DNA of 39,989 nt from a virus. Under the pieces are notes generated by a model. That model searched no databases, was not told the DNA's origin, and saw only the letters and a list, made by a program, of their open reading frames with translations. How positions within the stretch are numbered: the first letter of the stretch is position 1; each line of letters opens with the position of its first letter. Shown here piece by piece: positions 24,716-35,457 of this stretch. Position numbers and translations under genes: made by a program. The stretch covers positions 1 to 39,989 of IMG/VR virus record IMGVR_UViG_3300042542_003512; one strand, written 5' to 3'.

Positions 24716-26743
24716 CTATTCGTAAAAAATCACAACCCCGTTTTCCATCCGCAGTGGACCGTCCTTCTCCCTGCTAAGGTTCTGAATTGCCCGGACAACT
24801 GACTGGCGACGGATGTCGCGCTTGCCCGGCTCTGGTGGTGGTAAAGTATCGCAAGCCTTGCGGATCAGGTCCTCCGCGCGAATAACTGCATCCGCCGGGA
24901 ACAGGGTCGCCACCTCCAGTAGGTGGGTCTCAAGGCGGCCGCGACGCTTCACGCCCTTCTTGTCGTCGATGGCCGCCGGGCGCACGTCATCCTCGACCGC
25001 AACGCAGCTCGTGATGTCGTCACCGTCGTCGTCGAGGCCAAGCAGGATCGTCTCCAGCTTAAAGCCCCAGCGGACGCCGTCCTCGCCGTCCTTCATCTTC
25101 TCGATGACGATCTCGCGCCTGCCGTCCTCGTGGCGCAGGACCTCGATCTGCACGTCGGCGGCGGCCTTGATACCAGACCAGCCGCGCGAGCCCTTGCTCA
25201 GGTCCTTGCCCGCGTGGTGCACGGCGAGGTTCATCGCCCCGGTGGCGTCGTGCAGCAAGTTGATGTTGCCCAGCGCCCGGCCCATGTCCTCTGACGTGTT
25301 CTCGTTCGCGCCGGGCGTCACTTGCGCCAGTGTGTCGATGATTATCAGGTCAACCTCGCCGAGGTTCTTGATCTCGGCGATCACCTCGGAGATGTCGTCC
25401 CCGTCCAGAAAGTTCGGCGCGGCCGTGATGATGTGCAGGTCGTGCACGGTCCGCAGGTCGAACCCGTGGTGCTGGGCGTAGGCCTGCCCGCGCTTGCCCA
25501 GACCGGAGCCGCCTTCTGCGGCGATGACCACCACCCGCGCCCGCATCGTGCGCCGTGTGCGCCACGCAATGCCGCGCGCGACTGAGAAGGCGAGGTCGAG
25601 GGCGACGAAGGTCTTGCCGCTGCCTGACGCGCCGAACAGGACGCCAAGCCGCGCCTTGGGCAGCACGCCCTTGATCAACCAGCCCATCGGCTCGCGCTGG
25701 GTCAGGTCGTAGATCGGCACCGGGCCGAAGCGGCCGAGGCTCTTCGTCGGCAGCTCAGCCATGATCGCCTCGGCCTTGGCGAGCACCTCTTCGCGGCTGG
25801 CTGCCTCAGTAGGGCGGCTCTGGGCGTCCTTCGCCATCTTGATCACGCTGGCCATGGTGACCTGCCTGCGGGTCGAGCCCTTGCGCCTGTCGAAGCTGTC
25901 CCACTGGACCCGCATGGCCTCAGTGCTGACGTAGGTGTACCCGTCCTGAGACCACTCGTCCCACAGCTCGAAGCCGGTGTCGTCACCGTCGCACTCGTGG
26001 TGCAGCGCCATGCCGACCCTGATCCAGTCCGCGCGGCTCATGTTCGGATCGAGGCTGTTGACCAGCTCGGCCATGCGCTCGGGCGTCAGGCCCAGCCGTG
26101 GCTCACGGCCGGCCATGAAGTCGTCGGGGTCAACGACGTTGTTGATCAGCGGGCCGTTGAAGCGGCGCTCGCACAGGTCGATGACATGCTGATCGACGGT
26201 CGCCACCGTGTTCTCAAGGCCGATCATCTCGCAGGCGGGCAGGATGTTGCCCGTGAACGTGACAAACATTGACGTGGAGAACGTCTCAAAACCGAACTGC
26301 TCCGGCGTCGAGGGGCTCTTGTGGTTACCCAGATTGCCTTTGAGCGCGGCGCGGATGCCTTTACCCGATGGGCTGAACTCAGCATAGGTGCGCGCCACGA
26401 TCTGCTCGATCTCGGGCGCAATCTCGCCGCTCGGGCCGACGCAGTTGTCGAAGTCGAGGAAGGTATACCCAAAGTCGGGCAACGGCGCAAAGCCGACGCC
26501 AGAGTAGCCCATGCGCGCAGCCGCGTCGCGCGCAGCGGCAAACGGGGTCAGACGCGCACGATCTGTCGGCGAGCCCTGCTGGCCGTGGCGGATCGTGCCA
26601 TCGGTCCAGTACGGGACTTTGCGGGCCTTCGCCTCGCCGGGGTATTGCTCGAAGCGCCAGATGAGCCAGCCGGGGATGAGCCGCAGCTCCGCCGGCACCT
26701 CAAGGGCGCGGATTTTGGGCGCAATTGCCCTGACGCTCGCCAT
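24716..26743 (-). CDS. Primase-polymerase / RepA-type helicase fusion
   Basis: 675 residues from the ATG at 26743 with GGAGG 5 bases upstream; an in-frame GTG at 26755 is part of that ribosome site. N-terminal archaeo-eukaryotic-type primase/polymerase: LDFDN (D97, D99), SPSGKGIRA at 124-132, FETF and VTFTG around 152-165. PriCT-2 linker domain at about 222-303. C-terminal RecA-like helicase with Walker A GASGSGKT (371-378) and Walker B LIIID (466-470). It should prime and unwind DNA at the replication fork, replacing separate primase and helicase genes. Confidence 0.92.
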   Translation of the reverse strand: MASVRAIAPKIRALEVPAELRLIPGWLIWRFEQYPGEAKARKVPYWTDGTIRHGQQGSPTDRARLTPFAAARDAAARMGYSGVGFAPLPDFGYTFLDFDNCVGPSGEIAPEIEQIVARTYAEFSPSGKGIRAALKGNLGNHKSPSTPEQFGFETFSTSMFVTFTGNILPACEMIGLENTVATVDQHVIDLCERRFNGPLINNVVDPDDFMAGREPRLGLTPERMAELVNSLDPNMSRADWIRVGMALHHECDGDDTGFELWDEWSQDGYTYVSTEAMRVQWDSFDRRKGSTRRQVTMASVIKMAKDAQSRPTEAASREEVLAKAEAIMAELPTKSLGRFGPVPIYDLTQREPMGWLIKGVLPKARLGVLFGASGSGKTFVALDLAFSVARGIAWRTRRTMRARVVVIAAEGGSGLGKRGQAYAQHHGFDLRTVHDLHIITAAPNFLDGDDISEVIAEIKNLGEVDLIIIDTLAQVTPGANENTSEDMGRALGNINLLHDATGAMNLAVHHAGKDLSKGSRGWSGIKAAADVQIEVLRHEDGRREIVIEKMKDGEDGVRWGFKLETILLGLDDDGDDITSCVAVEDDVRPAAIDDKKGVKRRGRLETHLLEVATLFPADAVIRAEDLIRKACDTLPPPEPGKRDIRRQSVVRAIQNLSREKDGPLRMENGVVIFYE

Positions 26744-26760
26744 GTCGTCCTCCACAGGTC

Positions 26761-26997
26761 TTACAGCAGGTCGGCGCTGGCGCTCGGTGCGGCAAGCGCC
26801 CGGACGAGGTCGGGGCTCATGAGCTCATCGCGCGGCACGCCGTAGGCAGCCTCGATCACGACGGCCTTCTCCACTGGCACCCAGCCGCGTCGCTTCCATG
26901 CGTAGACGGCCTGATGCGACACGCCCATGCTGCGAGCGAAGCGAACGATGCCGCCGCCCTTGGCAATGGCGAGGTTGATGGCGTCAATGCGGGTCAT
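26761..26997 (-). CDS. YdaS/Cro-like helix-turn-helix regulator
   Basis: 78 residues. HTH at about 15-37 (GIVRFARSMGVSHQAVYAWK) followed by VPVEKAVVIEAAYGVPRDEL, the arrangement of YdaS-type Cro relatives. It is the only clear DNA-binding transcription regulator in the window and lies early in the leftward block, so it is a candidate to act at the TTGCAA promoters or TGCAGC hexamers. No CI-like partner is visible, which argues against a classical lysogeny switch. Confidence 0.85.
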   Translation of the reverse strand: MTRIDAINLAIAKGGGIVRFARSMGVSHQAVYAWKRRGWVPVEKAVVIEAAYGVPRDELMSPDLVRALAAPSASADLL

Positions 26998-28744: not shown

Positions 28745-29137
28745 TTACTTGAGGTGTTTGACGGCACCGCGAGCGCCGATGCGGACGTGGAAGCCGGACT
28801 TTTCTGTCTCGTCATCTTCGCGCCGGGCGATGCAGCGCACGTAGACGTGCGAGCCGATCCACGGGGTCTGTGTTCGCTTGCTCGTTATCAGGTGGCCCGG
28901 CGTCACATGCTGCTCGATCAAGCGCTGCACAACGGCGCGCTGCATGTCGGTGATACCGGCGCGCATGCCTGCCGCCCGCTTGGCCTCCACGATATCTCGC
29001 TCGGCGTACATGGGCAGCCAGCGGGTCGGCCCGTGGGTCGTGCTGCCGTCGGCGTGCGTGTACTCCACGCGCCAGCCGCGAAGGCCGCCGCAGGGCGCGT
29101 AATCTTCGACCACGTGGGCGTCGATGATGTCGGTCAT
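28745..29137 (-). CDS. Unknown early protein with duplicated leader
   Basis: 130 residues. N-terminal strands (EDYAPCGGLRGWRVEYTHAD), a central helical part (RDIVEAKRAAGMRAGITDMQ) and a basic beta C-terminus (HVYVRCIARRED, GFHVRIGARG). The 28 bases over its start (29132-29159) are identical, in reverse orientation, to those over the rightward gene start at 29996. Function unknown. Confidence 0.7.
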   Translation of the reverse strand: MTDIIDAHVVEDYAPCGGLRGWRVEYTHADGSTTHGPTRWLPMYAERDIVEAKRAAGMRAGITDMQRAVVQRLIEQHVTPGHLITSKRTQTPWIGSHVYVRCIARREDDETEKSGFHVRIGARGAVKHLK

Positions 29138-29159
29138 CGGGTGTCTCCTTGGTTGCTGA
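29132..29159 (-). repeat. 28-bp leader copy, left arm of long inverted repeat
   Basis: On the minus strand it runs from TCAGCAACCAAGGAG through ACACCCGATGACC, covering ribosome site and first codons of the 28745-29137 gene. It is perfectly complementary to 29974-30001. Confidence 0.95.
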
Positions 29160-29347: not shown

Positions 29348-29590
29348 TTAGTACTGAATGCCGGTCTTGAGGGCTTCGACCATGCTGCCCACCGGCAGCC
29401 AGCGGTCACCGTAGAACAACTCGTGGCGCACGAACCACTCGCGGCTGCTGCCGCCGCTCTCCGTGCCGCCCATCACCTCGAAGGTGCGGCCGTCGTAGGT
29501 CACGTCGAACTTGCCGTTGCCGGTCTTGACGATGTCGAGATCGGTGCAGTTGAAATGGTATTCGCGGCTGTTGATGGTGGCGAGGGCCAT
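29348..29590 (-). CDS. First leftward early gene, unknown
   Basis: 80 residues from the ATG at 29590 behind ATCAGCAACGGAG. Beta-rich start (INSREYHFNCTDLDIVKTGN, FDVTYDGRTFEVMGG) and helical end (VGSMVEALKTGIQY). Closest leftward gene to the control region, so expected to be among the earliest expressed. Function unknown. Confidence 0.7.
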   Translation of the reverse strand: MALATINSREYHFNCTDLDIVKTGNGKFDVTYDGRTFEVMGGTESGGSSREWFVRHELFYGDRWLPVGSMVEALKTGIQY

Positions 29591-29602: not shown

Positions 29603-29645
29603 GTTGCTGATGACCTCTTCTCTCATAACCAACGTGAGGTTGCAA
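29603..29645 (-). promoter_or_regulatory. Phage promoter-leader module, main leftward copy
   Basis: TTGCAA (29645-29640), 17-base spacer with GTTGGTTATG at the second-element position, GAGAAG at -10, ATCAGCAAC starting at 29611 (34 bases), then GGAG before the ATG at 29590. The -10 is poor for sigma70, suggesting help from an activator. Confidence 0.55.
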
Positions 29646-29655
29646 TAGCCTAATT

Positions 29656-29921
29656 TGCAGCATGAGCACTTTTTTACACGTGCTGCAGCATGCAGCATTA
29701 GCAGCACGGTGCAGCGTGATGCATCATGCTGCAAATGGTGCAGGTCGGGTAATGCAGCATTTCTGCAGCACGGAGGGGACACACCCCTTTAGGGGTGCCC
29801 CCCACTGCTGCAAATGCTGCACCGAGCAGATGCTGTGCTGCGCTGTAAAAATCCATGGTGTGATGACCAGCCCCGGAAGCTGAAGATGCAGCGTGATGCG
29901 TCGTGCTGCAGATGCTGCAGC
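29656..29921. repeat. Cluster of TGCAGC/GCTGCA hexamers
   Basis: Hexamer starts at 29656, 29682, 29684, 29691, 29710, 29728, 29753, 29764, 29807, 29816, 29887, 29905, 29914 and 29916, both orientations. Several sit in longer copies: ATGCAGCATT followed by GCAGCACGG at 29690-29709 and 29752-29773. No coding explanation. Confidence 0.9.
29710..29743 (+). repeat. 34-base direct repeat, copy 1 (copy 2 at 29887-29920)
   Basis: Begins TGCAGCGTGATGC and ends GGTGCAG here, CTGCAG in copy 2; 30 of 34 positions are identical and all four differences are single-base changes. The copies lie 177 bases apart in the control region. Confidence 0.9.
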
Positions 29922-29938: not shown

Positions 29939-29981
29939 TTGCAACGGTGCGTTGCATGTGAGATGGAGGGTCATCAGCAAC
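29939..29981 (+). promoter_or_regulatory. Phage promoter-leader module, rightward copy
   Basis: TTGCAA (29939-29944), spacer containing GTTGCATGTG, GATGGA at -10, ATCAGCAAC starting at 29973 (34 bases), AAGGAG before the ATG at 29996. The only plus-strand member of the promoter family; it lies next to the TGCAGC cluster. Confidence 0.55.
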
Positions 29982-30001
29982 CAAGGAGACACCCGATGAC
30001 C
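29974..30001 (+). repeat. 28-bp leader copy, right arm of long inverted repeat
   Basis: Identical in reverse orientation to 29132-29159. It covers the leader, Shine-Dalgarno and the first codons of the rightward gene, and the two arms enclose 814 bases including the whole control region. Confidence 0.95.
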
Positions 30002-30469
30002 ATCCGCCCCGCCCTCGAAGCCTTCGCCCCCGAACTGGCCGATCAGTTCACCAGCTTCGCCACCCGCCGCATCGAGCGCTTGATCGAGCAGTTCGGCCTC
30101 GGGCTGAAGGGCATCGGCAACAGCGGCCAGTACAAGAGCTACGAAGCCGTAGCCGCCCTGTTCAACCGCCAGACCGGCGAAATTCGCGCCGACCGCCTTG
30201 AGGCCGCCGCCGCTGCCTACGCCGCCGCCACCATCGAAGCGTGGGCCGCCAAGATCGACCAGAAGATCGGCGACCTTATCGACGCTGAAGTGCGGGCTCT
30301 GGACGGCGCTCGCTTCCGCATCGTCGGCATCAAGAACGACCGCTCGATCTGCATCGAGCAGGACATGATCGTCAACGTCTCGCCGAAGGGCAAGCTGTTC
30401 AACCAGTTCCCCGCCCGCATCTACGTCAACGGCAAGTTCACCAGCGCGGCGGCTTACGCCAAGCTCTGA
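29996..30469 (+). CDS. First rightward gene, unknown conserved phage protein
   Basis: 157 residues. N-terminal helical half (EAFAPELADQFTSFATRRIE, YKSYEAVAALFNRQ), Ala-rich helix (AAAAAYAAATIEAWAAKI), then a beta C-terminal part (FRIVGIKNDRSICIEQDMIV, LFNQFPARIYVNGKFTS). It is separated from terminase genes by a hairpin and has its own promoter-leader copy, so it is probably expressed with the early genes. No family is recognised. Confidence 0.75.
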   Translation: MTIRPALEAFAPELADQFTSFATRRIERLIEQFGLGLKGIGNSGQYKSYEAVAALFNRQTGEIRADRLEAAAAAYAAATIEAWAAKIDQKIGDLIDAEVRALDGARFRIVGIKNDRSICIEQDMIVNVSPKGKLFNQFPARIYVNGKFTSAAAYAKL

Positions 30470-30476
30470 CCAGCAG

Positions 30477-30506
30477 GGGGCGGCCACAGTGCCGCCCCTT
30501 GTCCTT
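30477..30506 (+). terminator. Terminator-like hairpin after first rightward gene
   Basis: Perfect 8-bp stem GGGGCGGC (30477-30484) and GCCGCCCC (30491-30498) around a 6-base loop, followed by TTGTCCTT. The stem is strong and the T-tract interrupted, so it is a partial or factor-assisted terminator. It divides the first rightward gene from the packaging genes. Confidence 0.6.
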
Positions 30507-30566
30507 CGCCCGGCTGGGTGTTATCTGCTGTGGGCTGGTAGTCCTGCCACGAAGCGGAGCATGCAG

Positions 30567-31022
30567 ATGCCGTACCCGGCGAAGAAGAACCCTGAGCTGA
30601 TTGAGCAGGTGCTGACGCGCATCGCGCACGGCGAGACGCTGGCGGCGCTTGGACGCGAGTTGGATTTCCATCCTGTGAACTGGGGCAAATGGGTTGCCGC
30701 AGACGAAGCGTTGGCGGTCGCGTACGCGCAGGCGCGCGACGTTGGCGGCGACGCACTGGCGGAGCAGGCCCTCGCCCTGATCGACGAGGAGCCGGCGCGC
30801 GTCGAGGGCCGTGTTGATCCGGGCCACGTCCAGTGGCGCAGGGCGCAGGTCGATACGCGCCTCAAGCTGCTGGCGTGCTGGAACCCGAAGAAGTACGGCG
30901 CGAAGCAGCAGACCGAGATCAGCGGCCCTGACGGTGGCGCGGTCAAGACCGAGGCCACCCTGACGCCAGAGCAGCTTGCCTCGCTCACTGAAGCCCTAAT
31001 CAACCAGACCACAGGCAAGTAG
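30567..31022 (+). CDS. Terminase small subunit
   Basis: 151 residues from the ATG at 30567 (GGAG seven bases upstream; the ATG at 30561 is too close). N-terminal helix-turn-helix (ELIEQVLTRIAHGETLAALG, then FHPVNWGKWVAAD), a helical oligomerisation part (DPGHVQWRRAQVDTRLKLLA) and YGAKQQTEISG, common in small terminases. It recognises phage DNA and loads the large subunit. TAGTG coupling to the large subunit. Confidence 0.88.
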   Translation: MPYPAKKNPELIEQVLTRIAHGETLAALGRELDFHPVNWGKWVAADEALAVAYAQARDVGGDALAEQALALIDEEPARVEGRVDPGHVQWRRAQVDTRLKLLACWNPKKYGAKQQTEISGPDGGAVKTEATLTPEQLASLTEALINQTTGK

Positions 31023-32504: not shown

Positions 32505-35132
32505 ATGGACGAGGACGACATGGACGAGCTGCCAGAAATGGTTGAGCTGCCCGAGGAAGAAGAGCCCGATGTCATCGACACTGAGGACGGCGGCGCTATC
32601 GTCAAGCTGGACGATGCCGACGAGCGGTCCGACGACTTCTACGCCAACCTCGCCGAGACCATGCCCGAGAGCGAGCTCAGCACCATGGCGGCTGACTACC
32701 TCGACCTGATTGGCAAGGACAAGGAAGCGCGCAAGAAGCGCGACGAGCAGTACGAGGAGGGCCTGCGCCGCACCGGTCTGGGCGACGACGCGCCCGGCGG
32801 CGCGCAGTTCAACGGCGCGACCAAGGTCGTGCACCCGATGCTGACCGAGGCGTGCGTGGACTTCGCCGCCCGCGCCATCAAGGAACTGTTCCCGCCGCAG
32901 GGTCCGGTCAAGGACTTCATCCCCGGCGAGCCGACCGTCGAAAAGCTCAAGAAGGCCAAGCGCAAGACGGACTTCATGAACTGGCAGCTCACGGTGCAGA
33001 GCCCTGAGTTCCGCGCCGAGCTGGAGCAGCTCCTCACGCAGGTGCCGCTGGGCGGCGCGCAGTATATGAAAACCACTTGGCACGAGGCGCGCAACCGGCC
33101 GGAGTTCCTGTTCGTCGCCATCGACGACATGTACCTGCCGTTCTCGGCGACGAACTTCTACAGCGCCCAGCGCAAGACGCACGTCCAGTACCTGACGCAG
33201 CTTGAGTACACCCAGCGCGTCAAGCGCGGCATGTACCGCGACGTGGACCTGACGCCCGTCACCCTTGAGCCCGACTTCAGCTTGGCCGAGAAGGCCAACA
33301 ACAAGATCGAGGGCCGCACCGAGACCAGCTACAACGAGGACGGCCTGCGGACCGTCTACGAAATCTACGTCACGGCCGACATCGAGGAGGACGGCGAGGC
33401 GCTGCCCTACATCATCAGCGTGGACAAGGTCACCAGCAAGGTGCTCTCGATCTACCGCAACTGGGACGAGCTGGACGAGGCGCAGGAAGAGCTGCAGTGG
33501 TTCGTCGAGTTCCCGTTCATCCCGTGGCGCGGCGCGTACCCCATCGGCCTGCCGCACATGGTCGGCGGCATCTCGGCCGCCGCGACGGGCGCACTGCGCG
33601 CCCTGCTCGACAGCGCGCACATCAGCAACAGCCAGACCATGTTGAAGCTCAAAGGCGGCAGCAAGGGCGGCCAGTCGCTTGAGATACAGCCGACGCAGGT
33701 GATGGAGATCGAGGGCGGTCTGGCGGCGGACGACATCCGCAAGCTGATCATGCCACTGCCGTACAACCAGCCGTCGCCGGTGCTGTTCTCCCTGCTCGGC
33801 TTCCTCGTCGATGCCGGCAAGGGGGTCATCCGCACCAGCATGGAGGACATCGCGGACGGCAATCCGAACGCGCCGGTCGGCACGACGCTGGCCAAGATCG
33901 AGCAGGGCATGGTCGTGTTCAGCGCCATCCACGCCCGCATGCACAACAGCATGCAAAAGCTGCTCGGCATCCTGCACCGCCTCAACGCGATGTACCTTGA
34001 GGACGAGGACATCAAGGAGGAGATCGGCGAGCAACTGGCCACGCGCGAGGACTTCGAAGGTCCGCTCGACGTGGTGCCGGTGTCCGACCCGAACATCTTC
34101 AGCGAGGCGCAGCGCTTTGCACAGGTGCAGGCGGTCGCCCAGCGCGCGGCCGCGCTGCCGCAGCTCTACGACCAGCGCGCCGTCGAGGAGCGCATCCTCG
34201 ACACGCTGAAAATCCCCAACGCCCAGAAGCTCCTGCTGCCGCCGACCACGCCGAAGGAGCAGAACGCGGTCAACGAGAACCTGTCGGCCTCGATGGGTCG
34301 GCCGGTCGTGGCCTTCCCGGCGCAGGACCACATTGCCCACCTCAAGACGCACCTCGCGTACATGATGAACCCGGCGTTGGGCCAGAACGCGCTGATCGCG
34401 CCGGTCTACCTGCCGATTATGCTGAACCACCTGAAGGAGCACATCGCCCTGTGGTACGTCTCGTCGGTGCTGGAACTGGCCGAGGAAGAGGCGGGCGAGG
34501 ATGTCACCAAGACGATAAAGGAACTGAAGACGCCCGAGGCGCGGCAGGCGTTCGACCGCATGCTGGCCGAGGCGTCGCAGAGCGTCGTCGAGCAGGCGAC
34601 CGGCGTCTTCGCATCGCTGCCGCCCGTCATCCAGCAGGTGCAGCAGATCATCCAGCAGTTGCAGCAGCCCGGCATGCCGCAGGACCCGCGTCTGGCCATC
34701 GAGCAGCAGAAGATGCAAATCCAGCAGCAGGACAGCCAGCAGCGCGCCCAGATCGAGGGCCAGAAGATGCAGGCCAACATGCAGATGGAGCAGGTCAAGA
34801 TGCAGGCCAACATGCAGCTTGAGCAGGCCAAGATGCAGGCCGACCTGCAGCGCGACCAGCAGCGCGCCCAGATCGAGGGACAGAAGATGCAGGCCGACGG
34901 CCAGCTTGAGCAGCAGCGCATGCAGCTTGAGGCGGCCAAGGCGCAGATCGACATGCAGCTTGAGCAGATGAAGCAGGACCGCGAAGACCAGCGCAAGAAG
35001 GCCGAGCTGGACGCGCGCATGGCCATGAACCTGCAGGACAATCAAACCGCGATGCAGCTCGCCGCAGCGGAAATAGCCTCGGGCGAGAGGTTTGACGTGT
35101 CCACGGGCACAGGCATCAACCCGCAACCGTAA
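32505..35132 (+). CDS. Portal protein with long C-terminal coiled-coil barrel
   Basis: 875 residues, longer than the 725-residue P22 portal. Acidic N-terminus (DELPEMVELPEEEEPDVIDT), a mixed core with GGAQFNGATKVVHPMLTEAC and a conserved VEFPFIPWRGAYPIGLPH segment. From about 725 there is a Gln/Met-rich hendecad region (for example EQVKMQANMQL). The dodecameric portal is the DNA channel of the head; the repeat tail likely forms a helical barrel inside the capsid, as in P22. Preceded by AAGGGCGAG. Confidence 0.88.
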   Translation: MDEDDMDELPEMVELPEEEEPDVIDTEDGGAIVKLDDADERSDDFYANLAETMPESELSTMAADYLDLIGKDKEARKKRDEQYEEGLRRTGLGDDAPGGAQFNGATKVVHPMLTEACVDFAARAIKELFPPQGPVKDFIPGEPTVEKLKKAKRKTDFMNWQLTVQSPEFRAELEQLLTQVPLGGAQYMKTTWHEARNRPEFLFVAIDDMYLPFSATNFYSAQRKTHVQYLTQLEYTQRVKRGMYRDVDLTPVTLEPDFSLAEKANNKIEGRTETSYNEDGLRTVYEIYVTADIEEDGEALPYIISVDKVTSKVLSIYRNWDELDEAQEELQWFVEFPFIPWRGAYPIGLPHMVGGISAAATGALRALLDSAHISNSQTMLKLKGGSKGGQSLEIQPTQVMEIEGGLAADDIRKLIMPLPYNQPSPVLFSLLGFLVDAGKGVIRTSMEDIADGNPNAPVGTTLAKIEQGMVVFSAIHARMHNSMQKLLGILHRLNAMYLEDEDIKEEIGEQLATREDFEGPLDVVPVSDPNIFSEAQRFAQVQAVAQRAAALPQLYDQRAVEERILDTLKIPNAQKLLLPPTTPKEQNAVNENLSASMGRPVVAFPAQDHIAHLKTHLAYMMNPALGQNALIAPVYLPIMLNHLKEHIALWYVSSVLELAEEEAGEDVTKTIKELKTPEARQAFDRMLAEASQSVVEQATGVFASLPPVIQQVQQIIQQLQQPGMPQDPRLAIEQQKMQIQQQDSQQRAQIEGQKMQANMQMEQVKMQANMQLEQAKMQADLQRDQQRAQIEGQKMQADGQLEQQRMQLEAAKAQIDMQLEQMKQDREDQRKKAELDARMAMNLQDNQTAMQLAAAEIASGERFDVSTGTGINPQP
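34738..34977 (+). repeat. 120-bp repeat encoding hendecad coiled coil in portal
   Basis: CAGCAGCGCGCCCAGATCGA recurs exactly 120 bases apart (34738 and 34858), and the encoded 40-residue units (from QQRAQIEGQKMQ) are similar. Within them 11-residue units (EGQKMQANMQM, EQVKMQANMQL, EQAKMQADLQR) follow one another. Confidence 0.8.
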
Positions 35133-35143
35133 GGAGGCCGACA

Positions 35144-35266
35144 ATGGCTAAGGACACACCCAAGAGCAGCGAAGTCGCCCAGAGGGGCGAGGGCGTCAAG
35201 CAGCACAAGCGGATGGCCATGGGCGAGATGCCCAAGGTGCCGTCGATGCCTAAGACACCTGCATGA
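35144..35266 (+). CDS. 40-residue basic protein, unknown
   Basis: AAGGAGG precedes the ATG at 35144; stop overlaps the next ATG (ATGA). Lys- and Met-rich, disordered-looking (EGVKQHKRMAMGEMPKVPSM). Comparable tiny genes sit after portal genes in related phages. Possibly a packaged or assembly peptide. Confidence 0.7.
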   Translation: MAKDTPKSSEVAQRGEGVKQHKRMAMGEMPKVPSMPKTPA

Positions 35267-35457
35267 GAATTGAGACCCTGCTGCAGCGACTGGAGCAATC
35301 GCAGGCCGAGTTGGCACGCGATGCGCTGCAGCAGCCTCAAGGCCGAGACCTTTTCGAGTATGGAAAAGTGGTCGGCATGTACGCGGGCCTTGAGCTTGCC
35401 AAAACCGCGTTGATCGACACGGTGGCGGAGAGCGAGCGAAAGGCCTTTGACCTTTAA
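35263..35457 (+). CDS. 64-residue helical protein, unknown
   Basis: ATGA coupling to the previous gene. One long amphipathic region (ETLLQRLEQSQAELARDALQ, then YAGLELAKTALIDTVAESER). No motif is recognised. Lies between portal and co-chaperonin, so a head-assembly role is plausible. Confidence 0.7.
   Translation: MRIETLLQRLEQSQAELARDALQQPQGRDLFEYGKVVGMYAGLELAKTALIDTVAESERKAFDL

Follow-up and report, generated by a model that had tools for sequence, protein, structure and literature searches.

A hexamer array whose word changes with the winged helix of a phage primase-helicase is a candidate iteron-type replication origin

The window, by which we mean the whole 39,989-bp virus record analysed here, carries leftward genes that include those for DNA polymerase A, an Enc34/gp2.5-type SSB, a DUF2800 exonuclease, a primase-helicase and a YdaS-like protein, and rightward genes for the small terminase, the large terminase and the portal. 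The primase-helicase (24716..26755, minus strand), our proposed initiator, combines an archaeo-eukaryotic-type primase N-terminus, PriCT_2, an AAA_25 RecA-like helicase and a predicted C-terminal winged helix. Directly upstream of it, a YdaS/Cro-like HTH protein is encoded (26761..26997, minus strand), and such a protein adjoins the primase-helicase in most relatives, even those with a different array word. The first rightward gene (29997..30469, plus strand) belongs to PHROG 4687, of unknown function, and its slot is occupied by a winged-helix paralogue in several relatives; the gene for an Sf6-type small terminase subunit follows (30489..31022, plus strand).

TGCAGC/GCTGCA words in both orientations form an array (29656..29921) 2.9 kb ahead of the primase-helicase start. 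The first leftward gene (about 29348-29590) and the first rightward gene, whose ATG is at 29997, border this region, and the open reading frames that overlap it are mechanical. Exact word counting gave 14 matches, 8 on the plus and 6 on the minus strand, and the extended half-site is about TGCAGCAYG. The sequence-only reading had reported 14 hexamers in about 266 bases in both orientations between these two genes, together with a 34-base direct repeat having 30 identical positions, and the recount and coordinates agree with it on each point. The density is unique in the window, as the shuffle check proposed there bears out: the maximum per 266 bp was 6 when the 40-kb window was shuffled 1,000 times with dinucleotide counts preserved, and the second densest real stretch, at ~34.8 kb, has 5 matches. 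Because the word is only mildly enriched over the whole genome (67 observed versus 51 expected), the array represents local clustering. A secondary run of 11 TGCAGC matches over ~700 bp (34639-35332), within and just past the portal gene, is probably coding in nature, and it may have a crr-like role. Cumulative skew, a further check proposed by that reading, gave a different outcome: GC skew has no clear switch at 29.7 kb and AT skew merely tracks gene direction; therefore, skew lends no support to an origin.

Copy 1 of the 34-nt direct repeat (29710..29743, plus strand) is the near-palindrome TGCAGCGTGATGCATCATGCTGCA, and copy 2 (29887..29920, plus strand) is identical to it at 30/34 positions (88%). 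A long imperfect hairpin occupies the centre (29753..29823), with words in both arms, more words flanking it and a GC-rich tip, CACCCC-TTTA-GGGGTG, at 29782-29797. As single-stranded DNA, the array folds much better than shuffles (z -6.2), and the same advantage over shuffles was seen for the arrays of 25 relatives (z -2.9 to -14). The T-tract that adjoins the first words (29670..29675, plus strand) is a possible DNA-unwinding segment; similar T/A tracts are present in relatives, the arrays of which are usually lower in GC than their loci. Outside the array, the two arms of a 43-nt inverted repeat lie in the leaders of the first leftward gene (29603..29645) and the first rightward gene (29939..29981). 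Two further leader features were observed: ATCAGCAAC occurs at 10 places in the window against 0.3 expected and represents a common gene leader, and a 28-nt stretch with a ribosome-binding site (29132-29159 and 29974-30001) is identical and inverted ahead of two genes. Rfam, tRNA, promoter and terminator scans found nothing.

A DNA similarity search of phage records returned no related divergent region. Dozens of relatives have an array at this site, with position and architecture conserved; in many large-terminase relatives, the array is densely packed with inverted and direct copies and lies 0.8-1.9 kb ahead of the primase-helicase gene. Conservation in related phages, which the sequence-only reading had named as a check, was thus found, together with a feature that its author had missed: the word itself differs among relatives, being TGCAGC, TGCAAC, TGCACC, TGTCAC and others (as listed for the relatives, GCTGCA, GTTGCA, CGTTGC, GGTGC, GTGACA and CAACGC/GTTGTA). 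Within one relative's array, most copies carry the switched word together, the pattern that would be expected of a site array under one changing reader, and the central hairpin and edge T-tracts recur with other sequences. In many distant relatives, some of them contigs of bacterial genomes, the array starts within tens of bases of the primase-helicase gene end, and it begins at about that end in L246, L335, L341, L378, L389, L413, L456, L458, L466, L476 and L508; the array therefore travels with this gene rather than with terminase or with the divergent promoters. Two bacterial contigs, from Magnetospirillum aberrantis SpK (L458) and a Hydrogenophaga MAG (L456), have a TGCACC array that starts 2-6 bp after the gene for the primase-helicase relative. 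The relatives, among which are incomplete contigs, include several found in genome records of alpha- and betaproteobacteria. The nearest isolates are the Caulobacter phages RW, KcrB, RLK and GB2A; in RW, which is in culture, the primase-helicase is related but the array is absent.

The reader of these words is probably the C-terminal domain of the primase-helicase (24719..24955, minus strand). An AlphaFold2 model of this domain has three helices and a beta-hairpin, with a pLDDT of about 90 in the folded core, and it is predicted to be a winged helix in which Ile648 (codon 24812..24814, minus strand; GKRD-I-RRQ) starts the third, recognition helix. Foldseek searches with the model listed mostly winged helices, none significant, and Pfam and PDB sequence searches with the domain returned nothing credible. 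In several relatives, genes beside the array also contain the last ~75 residues of the protein, either as a domain on its own or at the terminus.

Residue 648 had the strongest association with TGCAGC versus other words among all primase-helicase alignment columns in 45 genomes. Ile648 is paired with TGCAGC, Thr with TGCAAC, and His four residues on (652) with TGCACC, whereas a Gln-type lineage (L177, L178) has TGTC-based words. By plain mutual information, other proteins also have clade-linked columns (exonuclease S263P, PolA), and this measure is misleading because clades carry many linked columns; independent contrasts were therefore used, on a tree built without the winged-helix domain. 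In these contrasts, residue 648 ranked 1st of 540 variable columns, with 463 and 572 close behind (level with it or slightly ahead when fewer genomes were used), and the best columns in other proteins scored lower, on fewer genomes. For Ile and TGCAGC, 5 contrasts were concordant and 0 discordant in genomes without an array-adjacent paralogue, a set picked post hoc after the data had been seen, and the count was 3 to 0 when paralogue genomes were included in the full set; for His652 and TGCACC, it was 3 to 0 in the genomes without such a paralogue. Independent switches are few; for the Ile-TGCAGC pairing by itself, p is about 0.06. L111 (Thr, TGCAAC) gives the clearest example: it is nested within L162/L142/L146 (Ile, TGCAGC), and its YdaS is nearly identical to theirs.

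The pairing does not hold everywhere: TGCAGC occurs with Thr in L184/L186 (RRH) and L250, and TGCAAC with Ile in L205; L164 and L166, the latter with a paralogue, share the same recognition helix and differ in word; in L453/L459 (Ile), no TGCA array was found in the sequence covered. Later-fetched loci were scored against the residue-word rule afterwards, and 4 of the 5 with arrays fit it, namely L456 (His, TRKQH; TGCACC x13) and L466, L476 and L508 (Thr, TGCAAC); L458, with Ala and TGCACC, falls outside, its residue not being covered by the rule. No such array was found with any of the later-fetched primases that lack a matching C-terminal motif. A one-residue code valid for all relatives was rejected, as it is broken by distant clades. 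These sequence comparisons suggest that the word follows the C-terminal winged helix, which amounts to a rough but testable recognition code.

Where the domain has a second copy by the array (L027, L224, L058, L015, L075), the array tends to be hybrid or deviating, and one small paralogue type is common to two TGCACC exceptions (L318 for L140; L166). In the L250 genome, TGCAAC words lie in the divergent region and a TGCAGC array lies behind the paralogue. In L325, a winged-helix paralogue gene has a separate array on each side, and the two arrays use different words. We take the array-adjacent paralogues to resemble Cnr by analogy. It is conceivable, though we regard it as unlikely, that phages fall into replication specificity groups set by the words, comparable to the incompatibility groups of plasmids, and switch between them under selection. 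The paralogues would then be regulators of the Cnr kind, or second initiators that each have a word of their own; hybrid arrays would be the record of a second reader and might allow a phage to evade a competitor's origin or to block it.

Other functions of the array have to be weighed against an origin. The winged helix of the primase-helicase or of its paralogues might control divergent early and late promoters from an operator array, the origin being elsewhere. The position between divergent operons in the window's group, the matching leaders that the 43-nt inverted repeats give to both sides and the small paralogues adjoining the array in relatives would all suit such control; however, distant relatives have the array directly behind the primase-helicase gene instead, and a scan of the region for sigma-70-like promoters gave none, although such a scan is weak evidence. 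We consider this reading improbable. An operator for another regulator, such as the YdaS/Cro-like protein, is suggested by the location of its gene directly upstream of the primase-helicase, yet its recognition segment is nearly unchanged while the word changes (L111 versus L162; L164 versus L166) and the best YdaS contrast is 2.8/6, which makes this very unlikely.

A packaging (pac) site bound by the small terminase appears equally remote. The array is <1 kb from terS in the window and TerS columns reach 3.5/4 contrasts, but the same word occurs with different TerS types and different words with one TerS type, and the array of distant relatives comes after the primase-helicase gene. It is more doubtful still that a single-stranded DNA or RNA hairpin was selected for folding, with the words as by-products; the folding far above shuffles (z about -6) and the recurring central hairpin are what this would produce, whereas folding requires neither one word in many copies nor a word that tracks one residue. 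The sequence-only reading had left an initiator-bound origin, a regulator-binding array and a packaging or segregation site side by side. The origin served by the primase-helicase is now favoured, because the word covaries with its winged helix and the array travels with its gene, and YdaS and TerS are disfavoured as readers because their DNA-binding segments do not track the word.

We therefore consider it likely, from these comparisons of sequence, that the region is an iteron-type replication origin bound by the winged helix of the primase-helicase, which would load helicase and primase. The C-terminal winged helix would bind the TGCAGC words, whose direct and inverted copies around the central hairpin would position the helicase-primase there; the T-tract or the central hairpin may then melt, and the origin would fire at the array.

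By analogy, the nearest model is alpha/ori of satellite phage P4, in which, as proposed for the window, the initiator combines primase, helicase and a C-terminal winged helix, and the sites are repeated in both orientations, here as an array with a putative origin role. The P4 helicase is of the SF3 type. The P4 primase is of the Toprim type (PMC4234260), whereas the window protein has an archaeo-eukaryotic-type primase and a RecA-like (AAA_25) helicase; the window system is thus proposed to work like P4 but is not a member, because the primase and helicase types differ. No counterpart of the second P4 element, crr, was identified in the window, where only the weak coding cluster at 34.6-35.3 kb was seen. 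For the gene-adjacent arrays, the nearest models are plasmid pRN1 and Bordetella phage BPP-1: the replication proteins of pRN1 (ORF904) and BPP-1/BIP-1 have an archaeo-eukaryotic primase, a helicase and a winged helix at the C-terminus, and an origin with a stem-loop has been proposed 3' of their genes (PMC4234260). PriCT_2 is also present in BPP-1, and the arrays of distant relatives are likewise 3' of the gene. In contrast, the window array is not 3' of the gene but 2.9 kb upstream, the pRN1 and BPP-1 helicases are SF3, no iterons have been recognized as an origin there, and the BPP-1 C-terminus lacks the GKRDxRRQ motif. In the BPP-1 record (L452, 26573-26809), the genes on the terminase side are separated from those on the replication side by inverted GAGGCAAAC words, possibly an iteron array that has gone unrecognized. 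The closest solved relatives of the N-terminal primase, matching over the N-terminus only, are PDB 7ola ('DNA primase') and a structure that we take to be the NrS-1 primase-polymerase. RSF1010 is similar in its hexameric RepA helicase, specialized primase and iteron origin with short stem-loops, but there RepA, RepB' and RepC are three separate proteins, with RepC binding the iterons (PMC4234260).

Sequence seldom reveals where the origin of an environmental phage lies. In this phage group, a repeated DNA word changes along with a single residue of the recognition helix, so that the initiator, the origin and a rough code between them become predictable, and the alpha- and betaproteobacteria are places to test that code. 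If the proposed origin is correct, the group would show how an initiator and more than 10 origin sites can change specificity jointly.
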